A stretch of DNA of 47,047 bases from a bacterium endosymbiont of Bathymodiolus sp. 5 South (GTDB lineage: Bacteria; Pseudomonadota; Gammaproteobacteria; PS1; Pseudothioglobaceae). The notes beneath the pieces were generated by a model. That model saw nothing but the letters and a program-made list of their open reading frames with translations, had not been told where the DNA came from and did not search any database. The DNA lies in NCBI RefSeq assembly GCF_900128535.1, contig NZ_FQTR01000004.1, forward strand, positions 1 to 47,047, in the 5' to 3' direction. How positions within the stretch are numbered: position 1 is the first letter of the stretch; each line of letters opens with the position of its first letter. Shown in pieces: positions 34,065 to 41,837 of this stretch. Position numbers and translations under genes: made by a program.

Positions 34065-36206
34065 CTAAGTTTTTTGTTTTTTTTGTTTCTTGTTTTCACG
34101 CATCTCCTTATGGCGTAAGTCACGCTTTACTTCTTTTACTTTAGCTGGACATTTATGCTGATCTTTGTATAATACTTGGCAATGCAAACATTGCATACAT
34201 TCATTGTCATTAATATTGCCTTCAGGGTGAATGGCGTCTACCATACATTCATTGGCACAAGTTTGACAAGGTGTGCCGCAATCTTTTGGGTATCTTTTTA
34301 GCCAATCAAATATTCTTAATTTAGCGGGAATTGCTAATGCTACACCAAGTGGACATAAGTATCGACAGTAGAAACGCTCAATAAATAGCCCAATAAATAA
34401 TAGAATTAAAGCGTAGACAACAAATGGCCATGTGCGATTAAAATTTAAAATAACAACTGTTTTAAATGGTTCAATTTCACTAAAGTGTTCTGCCAATTCA
34501 AGAGAATAAAAAGAAATGCCAAGCAATCCTAAGAATACTAAATATTTAATCGCCCATGACCTTTCATGTAATCCCCAAGGGAGTTTAACTTGTGGTACTT
34601 TGAAATATTTTGCAACCTTATTTAAAAGTTCTTGTAGTGCACCAAAAGGACATAGCCAGCCACAATATACACCTCGTCCCCACAATAGTACAATAGCAGC
34701 AACGGATGCCCATGAAATAAATATTAACGGATCAAGTAAAAAGAAATCCCAATTAAATTTATGCATAAGCACATTGATAAAAGTTAAAACATTAACAACT
34801 GATAACTGATCATTTGATATAAAACCAATCCATATCAATGTAAATACAAGAAATGAATTGCGAACAATAGAGGTTGCTCTAGCAGATGAGGTTAATCTAT
34901 CTTGTTCAAAAAATATAACTGTCAGCGCTAATAAGGCGATAAATAAGATGATGATGTCCACTTTTCTATCTTTCCATATGTCTTTAATTAAACTATTTTT
35001 ATTGGATTTTATGTCGTTTCTAGTTTTCTGAATATTGGTTTTTTCATAGTAATATTCAGGCAGCTGATATTTGACAATATGATTGTAGAATTTCTTTTCA
35101 TCAACATTGATTGCACGATTAATCAATAAGTTGAATTTCCAAGATGCACTCGGATCAAAATTAGATTTTTTAGGAAATCTGAATAACCCAATTTCAGTAA
35201 ATTTTGGCGATCCATCGGCATAGGATTTGGCTAGTCGTTTATATTGCATATCTCTAAATCTAAAGATATTTGTACCTTGTTCAACTGCAAACCTATCAAA
35301 CAGACCACCACGAACAAACCCTGTTCCTCTAAATGAGTATAAACCACTTGCCATAACTAAAATGGCATGCTGATCTTTTGATAGCTTACTAATTAAATTT
35401 TTATATTCTGCCTTACCTAAAATATTTTGACCAATTTCTTTTATACTAACCAATGCAAGGTTGAGATCAATAAAGGTATCTTTTAAATTATTTGATTCTG
35501 TAATATTTGCTGCAATATTGTAATTATTTTTTAAATATTGTGCATTAACATCTCCAACACTAATTGCGCTATGGGAAATAGCGCCAGAAGATAGCAGTTG
35601 CTGCCAACTTTTTTTCTGGATAGGTAAATTTTTATTAATTGTTCCAACCTTGCTATTAGAAAAATTATTTGCAAAACCAGATAAATTAATTTTCTTTGCA
35701 AATTTTAATACCGTGTGTAAAACACTGTCGTCAATTATTCGATCAGTTACTGTTGCTCCACTAACAGCATCAATTTTCCGATTATCAAATTGATCTTTGA
35801 GCCAAGTTTTAATTACATTAAAATTTTTATATCGAATGAATTTATCTGTTAATCTTTTTTCTGGAATGCCAGTTAGAACAATAGGCTCTGAATGTTTTAA
35901 AATTTGAACACCTTGGATTTGACCATTATTATCAATGCCAATAGCGATATGAATGGGTTTGCCAGAATAACCAATTGTTTCGTTAAAATCAGTGTTGATA
36001 ATTATATAACCAATAGGTTTCTGACCTTGAAAGATACGCAATGCAGGAACATTGCTCATTTTTTGAGTAGTTATCAAACCTGAATAGAAAATAGATAAGT
36101 CAATTTTATTTCTAAATTTATCTAGTTGAACATCTCCATGAACAATAAAAGATAGCGACATGAATAATGTAAGAAATAATTTTTTTATTGTATTTTCTAT
36201 TAACAT
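34065..36206 (-). CDS. nosR: NosR, flavoprotein/ferredoxin regulator of nitrous-oxide reduction
   Basis: 713 residues. A signal-like N-terminus is followed by a periplasmic FMN-binding domain with SGATVT (149-154), where FMN is linked to Thr. Several membrane helices follow, with the Cys motifs CGWLCPFGALQ (about 515) and CRYLCPLGVAL (about 614), then a ferredoxin-like region (from 643) with CGTPCQTCANEC and CMQCLHC. NosR passes electrons to NosZ and is needed for its activity and expression. It diverges from nosZ across a shared FNR-type site. The tail is unusually Lys-rich. Confidence 0.95.
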   Translation of the reverse strand: MLIENTIKKLFLTLFMSLSFIVHGDVQLDKFRNKIDLSIFYSGLITTQKMSNVPALRIFQGQKPIGYIIINTDFNETIGYSGKPIHIAIGIDNNGQIQGVQILKHSEPIVLTGIPEKRLTDKFIRYKNFNVIKTWLKDQFDNRKIDAVSGATVTDRIIDDSVLHTVLKFAKKINLSGFANNFSNSKVGTINKNLPIQKKSWQQLLSSGAISHSAISVGDVNAQYLKNNYNIAANITESNNLKDTFIDLNLALVSIKEIGQNILGKAEYKNLISKLSKDQHAILVMASGLYSFRGTGFVRGGLFDRFAVEQGTNIFRFRDMQYKRLAKSYADGSPKFTEIGLFRFPKKSNFDPSASWKFNLLINRAINVDEKKFYNHIVKYQLPEYYYEKTNIQKTRNDIKSNKNSLIKDIWKDRKVDIIILFIALLALTVIFFEQDRLTSSARATSIVRNSFLVFTLIWIGFISNDQLSVVNVLTFINVLMHKFNWDFFLLDPLIFISWASVAAIVLLWGRGVYCGWLCPFGALQELLNKVAKYFKVPQVKLPWGLHERSWAIKYLVFLGLLGISFYSLELAEHFSEIEPFKTVVILNFNRTWPFVVYALILLFIGLFIERFYCRYLCPLGVALAIPAKLRIFDWLKRYPKDCGTPCQTCANECMVDAIHPEGNINDNECMQCLHCQVLYKDQHKCPAKVKEVKRDLRHKEMRENKKQKKQKT

Positions 36207-36239
36207 GTATTTGTATTAAAAAAATTTAAATATGACACA

Positions 36240-36245
36240 ATTTTA
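36240..36245 (-). promoter_or_regulatory. -10 hexamer of nosR
   Basis: Read on the minus strand this is TAAAAT. Its upstream edge lies 28.5 bases from the centre of the FNR-type palindrome, close to the 29.5 of a class-II FNR promoter, giving a start near 36,233 and a leader of about 27 bases before the nosR ATG. Confidence 0.6.
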
Positions 36246-36266
36246 TATTAACCTGTGTATATTTAA

Positions 36267-36280
36267 TTGACCTATGTCAA
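36267..36280. promoter_or_regulatory. FNR/DNR-type operator shared by nosR and nosZ
   Basis: TTGACCTATGTCAA is a perfect TTGAC-N4-GTCAA palindrome, the form bound by the CRP/FNR superfamily (FNR prefers TTGAT, DNR/NnrR types accept TTGAC). It is centred at 36,273.5 between the divergent genes, and TAAAAT -10 boxes lie at class-II spacing in both directions. Low-oxygen or NO activation of both arms is inferred. The regulator gene is not in the window. Confidence 0.8.
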
Positions 36281-36302
36281 TGATTATTGTGATTAATCCA
36301 TT

Positions 36303-36308
36303 TAAAAT
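36303..36308 (+). promoter_or_regulatory. -10 hexamer of nosZ
   Basis: TAAAAT begins 29.5 bases after the operator centre, exactly the class-II geometry (activator at -41.5). The predicted start is near 36,315, leaving about 28 bases with the ribosome site AAGAGGGCGG before the ATG at 36,343. Confidence 0.65.
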
Positions 36309-36342: not shown

Positions 36343-38262
36343 ATGAAAAAAACAGAAAAAACAGAGGGTTGCGTTCAAACTAGCGTTAGTCGCCGTAATT
36401 TTTTAAAAGGTGGTGCTGTGATTGGTGCCAGTGCTGCGGTCGTTCCTGTAGTTGGTGGATTGAGCATGCTAGGTTCAACTAGCACGCAAGCCTCCTCAGG
36501 TAAAGGTTCTGTTGCACCAGGCGAATTAGATGATTATTATGGTTTTTGGAGTAGTGGTCAAGCGGGTGAAATTCGTATTATTGGCGTCCCCTCTATGCGC
36601 GAACTTTCGCGTATTCCTGTATTTAACAGATGCAGTGCAACGGGTTGGGGGCAAACCAACGAAAGTTTAAAAATTCTAACAGAAGGGTTGACAGAAAAAA
36701 GTAAAAAAATGCTTAAAAAGCGAGGTGTGAAATCTTGGGATAATGGCGATCTTCATCATCCCCATATGTCTTTTACTGACGGCACTTATGATGGCAGGTA
36801 TATTTTTGCTAATGATAAATTAAATTCAAGAGTTGCTAGAATTCGTTGTGATATTATGAAAACTGATAAGATTATTGAGATTCCTAATGCCGCTGATATT
36901 CATGGACTTAGACCACAAAAATATCCTAGAACAGGTTATGTGTTCGCTAATGGCGAGCACAGGGTTCCACTGCCTAATGATGGGTCAATCCTAGATGAGC
37001 CAGAAAAATATCATGCCATTTTTACTGGCATTGATGGTGACACTATGAAGATTGAATGGCAAGTTATTGTTGATGGAAACTTAGATAATAATGATGCTGA
37101 TTACCAGGGTTTGTATGCCTTTTCAACCAGTTACAACTCTGAAGAAGGTGTTACATTAGCTGAAATGACATCAGGTGAGCAAGATCATGTTGTTGTATTT
37201 GACATTAAAGCCATTGAAAAGGGTGTAAAGAATGGCGACTATAAAATTATGAATGGCGTTAAAGTATTGGACGGCAGAAAGGGATCTAAATATACGCGTT
37301 ATATTCCTATTTCTAAATCACCACACGGCATTAACACGGCGCCAGATAAGAAACATGTTGTAATTAATGGTAAATTGTCTCCTACAGTGTCAGTAATGGA
37401 TGTAAGAAAACTACCCGATTTGTTTAAAGACAATATCAAGCCAAGAGATGTTATTGTTGCAGAACCAAAATTAGGTCTAGGTCCATTACATACTTCATTT
37501 GATAACCGTGGTAATGCATATACAACGTTGTTTCTTGATAGTCAAGCGTGTAAATGGAATATTAAAAAGGCAATTAGACAATATAATGGTGAAAATGTTA
37601 ATCCCATTATTCACAAGATTGATACAGCTTATCAGCCAGGACACAACCATACTTCCATGGGGGAGACGGTAAATGCTGATGGAAAGTGGCTGGTGTCTCT
37701 TAACAAATTCTCTAAAGATCGATTTATTAATGTTGGACCACTAAAACCTGAAAATGATCAATTAATTGATATTTCAGGTCCAAAAATGAAACTTGTACAC
37801 GATGGTCCTACTTTTGCTGAGCCACACGATTGTATTATGGTAGACACTTCAATTGTCAACCCTTCAAATATTTATAAGCGCGACGATCCAATGTTTGCTG
37901 ATGCAGTGGCACAGGCGAAAAAAGATGGCGTTAAATTAGAAGGGGACAGTAAAATTATTCGTGATGGGAACAAGGTTCGTGTTTATATGTGGTCTGTTGC
38001 TCCCACTTATAGTATGAATAAATTTACTGTTAATGAAGGCGATGAAGTGACAATCTATGTGACAAATTTAGACAAAGTTGACGACCTAACACATGGTTTT
38101 GCAATGGGTAAATATGGTATTGCTATGGAGGTAGCGGCACAAGCAACTTCATCAGTCACTTTCATTGCTGATGACCCAGGTGTGCATTGGTGGTATTGCC
38201 AATGGTTTTGCCATGCACTGCATATGGAAATGCGTGGTAGAATGTTAGTGAAACCGGCATAA
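36343..38262 (+). CDS. nosZ: Nitrous-oxide reductase, Tat-exported (clade I)
   Basis: 639 residues. The Tat signal SRRNFLKGG places it in clade I. The seven CuZ histidines are recognisable: H138 and H139 (LHHPHMSF), H187 (ADIHGL), H328 (SPHGIN), H383 (GPLHTSF), H436 (GHNHTS) and H495 (EPHDC). The C-terminal cupredoxin domain has the CuA ligands H584, C619, C623, H627 and M630 ([12 protein letters not shown]). It reduces N2O to N2 in the periplasm. All ligands are intact, so an active enzyme is expected if copper assembly works. Confidence 0.97.
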
Positions 38263-38329
38263 TAAATACTGCATATGTTATTTTCAGGAATAATCACATT
38301 AACCAAGTGTTCATCTTTATGATATTTTG

Positions 38330-38357
38330 ACTGATAAAAAGTATCCGTTTTATCGGT
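38330..38357. repeat. Hairpin between nosZ and nosD
   Basis: ACTGATAAAA (38330-38339) pairs with TTTTATCGGT (38348-38357), one G-T pair, eight-base loop. No T run follows. It may stabilise the nosZ message or limit read-through to nosDFY. Confidence 0.45.
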
Positions 38358-38398
38358 TAATAAAGTTAAATTTTTTACCAACTGATTGTTCGTTGAAA

Positions 38399-39673
38399 AT
38401 GGTTTTAATTAGAATGGCATTAAGATTATCGGTGTGTGCTTATAGTAGTTTTTTATATGCACAGCCTATTATTATCACGCCAGATAAAAATCTATCCAGT
38501 ATTATTACCAGTGCTTCTGATGGTGATGTCTATCTATTAAAACCTGGTGAGTATCTAGGTAATTTTGTTGTGAACAAGGAAATTACCATTAGAGGTGAAG
38601 ATAGTGTAAAAATAATAGGATCTAAAAAAGGCAGTGTTATTACGGTTAACGCCTCTAATGTTACGATAGAAAATCTTATTATCGTTAATTCAGGTATAAA
38701 TTTAGCCTCCCAAGACAGCGCTATTTTTGTAAACAAAAATGTAAACAATACTTTAATTCAAAACAATACTCTAATAAACAATTTGATTGGCGTATATCTT
38801 TGGGGCTCAACAAACTCAAGTGTTATTAATAATAAAATTGTTGGCAAGAAAGATTTGCGTGAAAATGAGCGTGGGAACGGTATACAACTTTGGAATTCCC
38901 CTGGTTCAAAGGTAAGTTTTAACGATATTAGTTATGGAAGGGATGGAATTTTTGTAACGACTAGTAAAGACAATATTTTTAATAATAATATTTTTCACAA
39001 TTTGCGTTACAGTATCCATTATATGTACACCAATAATAGTAGTGTAAAAAATAATGTCTCTATTGGTAACGATATAGGGTATGCATTAATGAGTTCCAAT
39101 AAGCTTAATATTAATAACAATATATCTATCAACGACAAAGAACACGGTCTATTTTTTAATTATTTGAACGACTCCAAAATCAATGGCAATGTGGTAATTA
39201 ACGGAAAACATAAATGCTTATTTGTCTATAATTCTAACTTCAATATTATTATTAATAATTATTTTCGAGGGTGCTTAATTGGTGTCAATTGGACTGCAGG
39301 ATCTGATGAAAATGAGTTTTATGATAATGCCTTTATTGGTAACTACAAGCAAGTTAAGTATATCAGCACAAAGAATATAGAATGGTCGTATAAGGGGAAG
39401 GGCAATTATTGGAGTAATCACCATTCTTATGACATGAATAATAATGGCATTGCCGATAGCGCTTATAAACCTAATGATATTACTGATAAAATTTTATGGA
39501 ATTACCCAAATGCAGCTATTTTATTAAATAGCCCTATTATGCAATTACTTAAATATTCTAGTCGACATTTTCCATCGTTATTACCAGGAGGAATTCTTGA
39601 CTCATACCCATTGATGAGCGCATCTAAAATCGCAATAGGAACATTAAAAAATGCCAAAAAATATATTGATTAA
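38399..39673 (+). CDS. nosD: NosD, periplasmic beta-helix protein for CuZ assembly
   Basis: About 424 residues from ATG 38399; ATG 38414 (MALRLSVCAYSSFLYA) gives a cleaner signal peptide, and an in-frame ATG exists at 38327, so the start is uncertain and no clear ribosome site decides it. Repeats of the type ITVNASNVTIENLIIVNSG and NNTLINNLIGVYLWGS, rich in Asn, form the parallel beta-helix (CASH domain). NosD works with NosFY in maturing the CuZ centre. Base composition is very AT-rich: a sampled 60-base line (38941-39000) has 13 G or C. It overlaps nosF by 23 bases. Confidence 0.92.
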   Translation: MVLIRMALRLSVCAYSSFLYAQPIIITPDKNLSSIITSASDGDVYLLKPGEYLGNFVVNKEITIRGEDSVKIIGSKKGSVITVNASNVTIENLIIVNSGINLASQDSAIFVNKNVNNTLIQNNTLINNLIGVYLWGSTNSSVINNKIVGKKDLRENERGNGIQLWNSPGSKVSFNDISYGRDGIFVTTSKDNIFNNNIFHNLRYSIHYMYTNNSSVKNNVSIGNDIGYALMSSNKLNINNNISINDKEHGLFFNYLNDSKINGNVVINGKHKCLFVYNSNFNIIINNYFRGCLIGVNWTAGSDENEFYDNAFIGNYKQVKYISTKNIEWSYKGKGNYWSNHHSYDMNNNGIADSAYKPNDITDKILWNYPNAAILLNSPIMQLLKYSSRHFPSLLPGGILDSYPLMSASKIAIGTLKNAKKYID

Positions 39674-40544
39674 CTATAAAAATATAAATTTTTCCTATAA
39701 GGATGTGCAAATACTTTTTGATATTAATATAACCATCAAAAAAGGAGAAAGTGTTGCTATTGTTGGGCATAATGGTGCGGGTAAAACCACATTAATTAAA
39801 CTACTGATTGGTGTATTAGAGCCAAACTCAGGCACGATTAATTCAACACACTATATTCAGACTAATAAACTGAGTTTTATGCCAGAACATAGTGCGTTGT
39901 ATGGTCATTTAAGTGGTATTGAATTAATGCATTATTTTGCAGAACTTAAAGGCGTTGGCTTTAAGGATATTGATAAAATACTTAAATTAGTGAAAATAGA
40001 TTTTGCCATGTATAAAAAAATATCGCAATATTCAAAGGGCATGAAACAACGATTAATGCTTGCGCAGGCGTTATTGTCCGACCCTGAAATACTGATTCTT
40101 GATGAGCCTTATTCTGGACTTGATCCTAGTAGCAGACGCTTATTTAGTTATATTTTGCAAGACTTGAGTGCCAAAGGTAAGAGTATTATTTTATCTTCAC
40201 ATACATTAGAAGGCTTGACAGATATTGTTGATAATGTTATTTTTATGAAAAAAGGCAGAGTTGCTCTTTCGGGTAAAATTAAGACAGTTATTGATAATTT
40301 AGATCTGAATGATAAAATAAAACTAACTCTCGATAAAGAATCTTCAGCAGATAAAATTATAAAATCTATACAGCATTTAATTACATCGCACATGCTATCT
40401 CACAATAAGCTAACTCTATTTTACAAAACAACCAACAATATAGAAATATTGAGAACCATTGTTAATATTGCATCTATTCAAGATATTGATATTAATAAAG
40501 CAAATGTCAATGATGCTTATTATCTTATATACGATAAATTATAA
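39651..40544 (+). CDS. nosF: NosF, ABC transporter ATPase
   Basis: 297 residues. Walker A GHNGAGKT (39-46), signature YSKGMKQRL, Walker B ILILDEPYSGLD and the H-loop SSHTLEG are all intact. With NosY it forms the inner-membrane ABC complex that works with periplasmic NosD. It starts inside nosD and its last base is the first of nosY, so the three are coupled. Confidence 0.94.
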   Translation: MPKNILINYKNINFSYKDVQILFDINITIKKGESVAIVGHNGAGKTTLIKLLIGVLEPNSGTINSTHYIQTNKLSFMPEHSALYGHLSGIELMHYFAELKGVGFKDIDKILKLVKIDFAMYKKISQYSKGMKQRLMLAQALLSDPEILILDEPYSGLDPSSRRLFSYILQDLSAKGKSIILSSHTLEGLTDIVDNVIFMKKGRVALSGKIKTVIDNLDLNDKIKLTLDKESSADKIIKSIQHLITSHMLSHNKLTLFYKTTNNIEILRTIVNIASIQDIDINKANVNDAYYLIYDKL

Positions 40545-41368
40545 TGTCTAATCCAATTTTAACTATCTGCGTAAGAGAAATAAAAAATACGATAAATAAT
40601 CACTACCTACTTGGTATGACGCTACTATTGGCTACTTTGTCATTATTTCTTGTATTGCTCAGCGATACATCCTTTAGTGGTTCAGGTGTTAACAACCTTA
40701 GTATGCAAATTACCAGTTTGTCTAGCTTAAGCATTTTTTTTATTCCGCTTATGGCACTATTTTTAAGTTACGACTCAATTGTTGGAGAGAGTGAACAGGG
40801 GAGCTTGTTGTTAATGTTGTCTTATCCAATCAAGCGTCATCAGTTTATTCTTGGAAAATTTTTTGCTAATTGGATAAGTCTATCTATTGCTATTGTATTA
40901 GGGTACTGTTCTATTCTCTTGCTATTGTCATTTGGTAGCAATTTAACAATAAAGTTCACTTATGCATCATTTGGTTTGATTTATACTTCTATTTTATTAG
41001 GCGGTATATTCACAGCAATGGCACTATTGGTTAGTGTGGTTGTGGTGCAACGAAGTACAGCAATTATATACTGTATTGCAATTTGGCTATTTTTTGTAAT
41101 ATTCTTTGATATGCTGTTATTAATTGTTTTAACAAGTGAATACGGTTATATTATTAGTGCTGATATGCTGAGTAATATACTGCTATTTAATCCAATTGAT
41201 ATGTTTAGAATTATTAGTGTTGGCGATCAAGGTAATAATCTTTTACCTTTGCATTCCCTGTCTAATGTAGTTGTATTTTCTCAGTTCATACTCACATTAT
41301 CAATGCTGATTTGGATAATTGCACCACTAATATATGCTATTTATTTACTGAGGGGGAAAAATTTGTAA
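40544..41368 (+). CDS. nosY: NosY, ABC transporter permease
   Basis: 274 residues, six membrane segments of the ABC-2 type. The first cytoplasmic part (ILTICVREIKNTINNHYLLG) and ESEQGSLLLMLSYPIKRHQF are typical of NosY. It follows nosF with a one-base overlap. Its 3' end overlaps by 32 bases the convergent gene on the other strand. nosL, which normally follows as the copper chaperone, is not here. Confidence 0.93.
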   Translation: MSNPILTICVREIKNTINNHYLLGMTLLLATLSLFLVLLSDTSFSGSGVNNLSMQITSLSSLSIFFIPLMALFLSYDSIVGESEQGSLLLMLSYPIKRHQFILGKFFANWISLSIAIVLGYCSILLLLSFGSNLTIKFTYASFGLIYTSILLGGIFTAMALLVSVVVVQRSTAIIYCIAIWLFFVIFFDMLLLIVLTSEYGYIISADMLSNILLFNPIDMFRIISVGDQGNNLLPLHSLSNVVVFSQFILTLSMLIWIIAPLIYAIYLLRGKNL

Positions 41369-41837
41369 TATTGTATCTATCTCCAGAATGGATAAATGGA
41401 AAAATAATTTTCCAAATACCCGCATCAGTATGGATCATGAAATTGGCAGTCCATTTTGTTTTTTGCAGCGTGCATAATGACAAAAATATTTTTCCATTAA
41501 ATTTTTTATCGCTAATTCTGCTCAAATGAATCTTTGGTGGGCTGTAATCTAGGTCTGTCGCTATAAAGGTTGCTTCAATTTTTTTTACTTGTGTGTTACT
41601 TAACTTGACTGTGATTGTTGCCTCTTTAGTTGGAGGTAAGCCCTTGGGGTTAATATCAAAAGAAAGGTTAAATAAATCGTCAATTTGAACATTACAAGCG
41701 CTCAACATTATAGAACAATCGTCAACAATGATCACTCCTTTTTTTATCGGATCATCCTTGTTAAGGAAAATAAAAAATAGAGTTGCGAGCACAACTAAAA
41801 GTGTGATTATCTTTTTCAAAGCTTTTTTATTATACAT
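41337..41837 (-). CDS. Membrane-anchored small protein with conserved cysteines, possibly copper-related
   Basis: 166 residues. One N-terminal membrane helix (about 10-25) precedes a periplasmic domain with VDDCSIMLSACNVQID and, later, FLSLCTLQKTKWTANFMIH and a beta-rich end. This resembles, from memory, gammaproteobacterial proteins of about 180 residues with a CDL...C...LPVCS...M.W pattern found near SCO1/SenC genes. Metal binding or a disulfide is inference. It converges on nosY, so it is not simply part of that transcript. Function unknown. Confidence 0.7.
   Translation of the reverse strand: MYNKKALKKIITLLVVLATLFFIFLNKDDPIKKGVIIVDDCSIMLSACNVQIDDLFNLSFDINPKGLPPTKEATITVKLSNTQVKKIEATFIATDLDYSPPKIHLSRISDKKFNGKIFLSLCTLQKTKWTANFMIHTDAGIWKIIFPFIHSGDRYNITNFSPSVNK

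Follow-up and report, generated by a model that had tools for sequence, protein, structure and literature searches.

One predicted class-II CRP/FNR-family site shared by the divergent nosR and nosZ promoters of a Bathymodiolus symbiont

The region between the divergent nosR and nosZ genes of a thiotrophic symbiont of Bathymodiolus type contains a palindrome, TTGACCTATGTCAA (TTGAC-N4-GTCAA; positions 36267-36280, centre 36273.5), which probably acts as one class-II CRP/FNR-family site common to two divergent sigma70 promoters, with a DNR-type protein as its likely activator. This reading predicts that, in a deep-sea mussel symbiont, removal of the greenhouse gas N2O is coupled to NO production through a single site. 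All positions refer to the window, i.e. the whole 47,047-nucleotide stretch analysed here, which forms contig 4 in an assembly of 2.43 Mb.

nosR (34065-36206, minus strand, 713 aa) and nosZ (36343-38262, plus strand, 639 aa) lie head-to-head, separated by 136 bp of 24% G+C. nosZ encodes a TAT-dependent nitrous-oxide reductase (TIGR04244, E 0, 1107 bits against a cut-off of 625), while nosR matches the NCBIfam model TransRegNosR at E 1.5e-226 with 754 bits, a score under the curated cut-off of 1000. nosZ heads nosZDFY, in which nosD (38327-39673, plus strand) has a TIGR04247 match exceeding the cut-off, and the nosF-type ATPase (39651-40544, plus strand) and nosY-type permease (40544-41368, plus strand) match ABC ATPase and ABC2 permease models, respectively, and take their names from gene order. 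These three genes (38327-41368) are presumably co-transcribed with nosZ. No nosL was seen near the cluster. A 166-aa protein encoded convergently with nosY (41337-41837, minus strand) carries a CSIM-x-x-TC motif, has no match in Pfam or NCBIfam, and is found at the same position in the other three nos clusters.

The palindrome fits the FNR/DNR-type site pattern, TTGAY-N4-RTCAA, with zero mismatches and is the sole such match within the window. On the nosZ side, a predicted -10 hexamer, TAAAAT (36303-36308, plus strand), has its first base 29.5 from the palindrome centre, placing the predicted start at about 36315; on the nosR side, another TAAAAT (36245-36240, minus strand) begins 28.5 from the centre, giving a predicted start at about 36233. 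A class-II site is centred at -41.5, so that the -10 hexamer, starting near -12, lies about 29.5 from the site centre, and the -35 element is poor. At the level of sequence, then, a single site has class-II spacing to each of the two divergent genes, here (29.5 for nosZ and 28.5 for nosR, with the -35 region judged by eye) and in the symbiont of B. brooksi. The initial annotation had described the perfect palindrome between divergent genes and the TAAAAT hexamers at 28.5 and 29.5, and had read them as class-II activator geometry; the coordinates confirm every element of this description, the distances having been correctly measured to the hexamer edge nearer the palindrome. TTGAC was also considered as a sigma70 -35 element and was ruled out, as it lies about 30 from either hexamer and not 16-18. 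Judged by eye, the predicted 27-nt nosR leader (36207-36233) lacks a Shine-Dalgarno-like sequence ahead of the ATG at 36206, unlike nosZ, which carries GAGGG; translation of nosR may be weak, or its start may differ.

We then compared these features with chance expectation. When two mismatches are allowed, the motif occurs 28 times in the window against 26.9 expected, i.e. at chance level, and the weight therefore falls on the absence of any mismatch and on where the palindrome lies. None of 20000 dinucleotide shuffles of the 136-bp intergenic region contained the perfect palindrome, and the looser TTGAY-N4-RTCAA appeared in 0.17% of 20000 such shuffles. With the palindrome held fixed, a hexamer with at least 5/6 matches to TATAAT inside 28.5-30.5 is expected by chance in 5.5% of cases on the nosZ side, 15% on the nosR side and 0.9% on both. 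At 15%, the nosR-side hexamer is weak evidence by itself; what makes it convincing is its conservation in relatives. Genome-wide, the box plus -10 pattern gives 17 matches against 1 for the reversed control, but most of these lie within ORFs, and no regulon was drawn up from them.

Thiotrophic symbionts from the gills of Bathymodiolus mussels, together with one Thioglobus MAG, are the nearest relatives bearing nosRZ. The B. brooksi symbiont (L015) has the same divergent nosR/nosZ arrangement with a common site, TTGACTTATATCAA, aligned to that of the window, and with TATAAT (nosR) and TAAAAT (nosZ) both at 29.5. The nosZ -10 segment, TTTAAAATT, is identical in the two genomes and equally distant from the centre; both the half-sites and the hexamers can be aligned, in contrast to much of the remaining sequence, which differs. 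The B. heckerae symbiont retains the box and TAAAAT at 29.5 on the nosR side; a 161-bp MITE-like insert with 44-nt inverted repeats sits in the nosR leader (L146 2862-3022), and the nosZ side has been severed by an apparent insertion-sequence end. The Thioglobus MAG (L016) carries nosZDFY followed by nosR in the same direction, with a separate box for each gene, TATACT at 29.5 for nosR and CATAAT at 28.5 for nosZ. Since the nosR -10 hexamers of the B. brooksi, B. heckerae and Thioglobus genomes are all at 29.5, control of nosR by such a site appears to be the conserved state. Averaged over 12 promoters of nosR, nosZ and nirK, agreement with TATAAT reaches 4.42/6 at 29.5 and no more than 3.1 at the other tabulated offsets between 19.5 and 42.5; this peak was equalled in 0 of 20000 mononucleotide shuffles, a figure that is not a strict probability because the promoter rows are related and not independent. 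Loss of the palindrome among close relatives that keep nosRZ had been named in the initial annotation as grounds for rejecting the site, and the comparison finds both palindrome and class-II spacing retained. In the B. heckerae symbiont, the same ~30-bp insertion-sequence-like end is found beside the nosR box (L146 3078-3130) and beside nosZ (L017 180-215), where it adjoins a TATAAT with TTGTTA 17 bp upstream; a new constitutive nosZ promoter at this end is possible.

Among the 76 fetched loci containing both nosR and nosZ, 74 are tandem nosR-nosZ, one is divergent (B. brooksi symbiont) and one is nosZ-first (Thioglobus). The NosZ proteins of four Thioglobaceae form a single clade within an alphaproteobacterial-type group whose loci are tandem nosR-nosZ. 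The divergent layout, found among the fetched loci only in these symbionts, is therefore most simply read as a derived rearrangement, through which, again most simply, the FNR/DNR-type box would have been retained or regained at both genes. Control site and spacing would thus have survived the rearrangement of the genes they serve.

Which protein reads the site? A search of the symbiont's own assembly with HTH_Crp_2 returned three CRP/FNR members: a 224-aa DNR-type regulator (G000:C93) encoded upstream of nirK-norB, with recognition helix PETLSR; a 512-aa NIT-cNMP-HTH fusion, hereafter the NIT-CRP fusion (L143, G000:C36, 3806-5344, minus strand), with REVFSR and a C-terminal Cys cluster, encoded divergently from narK; and a 205-aa protein bearing AHETFYR. 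None of the three carries an FNR-type Cys cluster at its N-terminus. The best solved relative of the first is P. aeruginosa DNR (3dkw; E 1.5e-32, residues 5-214), whose helix reads PETFSR, and the protein has the sequence hallmarks of a DNR: full-length similarity, E181, a residue other than Arg at 180 and no N-terminal Cys cluster. In the alignment, the His residues of the LAAHAP and AGHLS stretches of P. aeruginosa DNR, which we take to be its heme ligands, are not conserved in the symbiont protein. The outer contacted base varies with the residue at position 180, being G for Arg and T for Ser or Pro (PMC1274295); by this rule, the DNR-type regulator fits TTGA and the NIT-CRP fusion fits GTGA. 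A second copy of the palindrome lies just 3' of dnr and 5' of nirK-norB, with TATGAT starting exactly 29.5 away, and the order dnr-box-nirK recurs across the genus and family. Thus, the search for a CRP/FNR-family regulator suggested in the initial annotation turns up one with suitable recognition residues, encoded beside this nirK box. Because the assembly consists of 427 contigs with 4.2% contamination, this regulator and the window possibly come from different strains. No dnr turned up in the B. brooksi symbiont, in which the nirK contig ends exactly at the 5' end of nirK, the expected place of dnr; its absence was therefore dropped as a refutation. No close DNR was found in the Thioglobus MAG, which has TTGA-type boxes; the only regulator found there with suitable recognition residues is a protein with a C-terminal Cys cluster and PESFSR, and it is presumably this protein that reads them.

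In the mechanism we propose, a dimer bound at 36267-36280 would compensate for the poor -35 elements and recruit polymerase either to the TAAAAT at 36303, for nosZDFY, or to the TAAAAT at 36245 on the other strand, for nosR. The likely activator is the DNR-type regulator whose gene neighbours nirK-norB in this assembly; NO arising from nitrite reduction would then induce nirK-norB together with nosR/nosZ, as a single regulon. That the protein binds and activates, that NO is the signal, that both promoters fire and that the genes are co-expressed are all steps that we infer from the arrangement of sites and genes. With the predicted starts about 82 bp apart, polymerases on the two sides would have overlapping footprints, which makes alternate rather than simultaneous occupancy plausible; mutual exclusion of the two polymerases is our guess from this geometry. 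That a single site could serve both nosR and nosZ, as previously suggested, gains support from the spacing, the conservation and the regulator gene. The accompanying suggestion of "low-oxygen or NO" control fares unevenly: the NO part is favoured, the best candidate being DNR-type with P. aeruginosa DNR as its closest solved relative, and direct oxygen control is less likely, no FNR with N-terminal Cys having been found. NO is thus the likelier signal.

We weighed three other explanations. The reader of the site might be not DNR but an oxygen-sensing FNR or some other CRP/FNR member, giving low-oxygen (or nitrate) control. The sequence of the box permits this, since the Dnr box is described as indistinguishable from that of Anr/FNR (PMC5398030), and the PESFSR Cys-cluster protein, the only suitable regulator found in the Thioglobus MAG, might hold an Fe-S cluster. 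We nevertheless consider such a reader unlikely, as all three HTH_Crp_2 members of the symbiont's own genome are without an N-terminal Cys cluster and as the NIT-CRP fusion, with Arg 180 and GTGAY-N4-RTCAC at its own promoter and narK, should favour GTGA over TTGA. It is quite unlikely, too, that the site activates one gene only, probably nosZDFY, with the nosR-side hexamer an AT-rich coincidence and the nosR promoter elsewhere: the low G+C content of the region, the 15% chance expectation, the displacement of this hexamer by one base from the optimum and the leader without Shine-Dalgarno-like sequence would all be in keeping with it, but the nosR -10 is exactly at 29.5 in the symbionts of B. 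brooksi (TATAAT) and B. heckerae (TAAAAT), and Thioglobus nosR has a box of its own with TATACT at 29.5.

Finally, the palindrome could be a chance inverted repeat without regulatory role. Genome-wide counts would agree with this, since the perfect palindrome occurs 7 times against 4 for the reversed control, so that enrichment is not clear, and 5 of the 7 lie within ORFs. The two intergenic copies, though, are precisely those at nosR/nosZ and at dnr-nirK-norB, where nirK shows the same arrangement, and this genomic context is decisive. Together with the location in a 136-bp divergent region (0/20000 shuffles) and the retention of half-sites and spacing in relatives whose flanking sequence has diverged, it makes a chance origin very improbable.

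One site shared by two divergent denitrification genes has a precedent. In Dinoroseobacter shibae, nirS and nosR2 share one bidirectional FnrL/Dnr site, TTAAC-N4-GTCAA, at 39.5 and 41.5 from the starts, and lacZ fusions depend mainly on DnrD in both directions; mutation of the palindrome was tested for nirS, and regulator-mutant data cover both directions (PMC5398030). The symbiont region resembles it in having one FNR/DNR palindrome at class-II distance in a divergent denitrification region, predicted here from the sequence, and differs in its gene pair, nosR with nosZ instead of nirS with nosR2, and in that no FnrL-type co-regulator was found. The principle of one shared site is therefore already demonstrated in D. 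shibae; what is new here is nosR and nosZ as the pair. The symbiont also resembles the DNR regulon of Pseudomonas and beta-proteobacteria, in which a DNR-type regulator goes with FNR-like boxes 5' of nirK, norB and nosZ (PMC1274295), but nosR there stands in front of nosZ and not divergent from it; the published DNR consensus is CTTGATnnnnATCAAG (PMC1274295), whereas the inner base here is mostly C/G (TTGAC). In Bradyrhizobium diazoefficiens, a FixK2 box lies 40.5 bp from the mapped nosR transcript start (PMC5582078), likewise a CRP/FNR-type box at nosR, but the genes are tandem (nosRZDFYLX), the box is at nosR only and activation is by low oxygen via FixK2 (PMC5582078). The literature searched for Bathymodiolus nos regulation and for divergent nosR/nosZ yielded no direct study.

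In the NIT-CRP fusion, a CRP-type regulator that ends in a C-terminal C-x2-C-x7-C-x7-C cluster is joined to a NIT domain of the nitrate-sensing kind; the fusion is apparently not described in the literature searched. A GTGAY-N4-RTCAC palindrome between its gene and narK (named by its transporter-like sequence) is conserved in 4 genomes. On account of its E-x-x-S-R, the fusion was considered as reader of the nos site, and it was set aside in view of Arg 180 and its own conserved GTGA palindrome. We tentatively suggest, as an idea somewhat more likely to be wrong than right, that these symbionts run two insulated one-component circuits, which would be set apart by a single recognition residue and a single base: a DNR-type circuit (Pro 180, TTGA) responding to NO and controlling nirK-norB and nosR/nosZ, and a circuit of the soluble NIT-CRP fusion (Arg 180, GTGA) responding to nitrate, perhaps to redox state, and controlling narK and nearby nitrate genes. 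The fusion or its C-terminal part is present in six members of the genus; in 274 genomes of the class, at E 1e-20, matches extending beyond the regulator half occur only in the symbiont's own genome. Relatives in the family (L228, L191, L186, L189) encode a regulator of 241 aa that shares the C-terminal Cys cluster but lacks the NIT domain. These non-fused proteins have PESFSR instead of REVFSR, and the palindromes near their own gene or narK are of TTGA type and not GTGA type, so that REVFSR/GTGA versus PESFSR/TTGA possibly represents a natural specificity switch.
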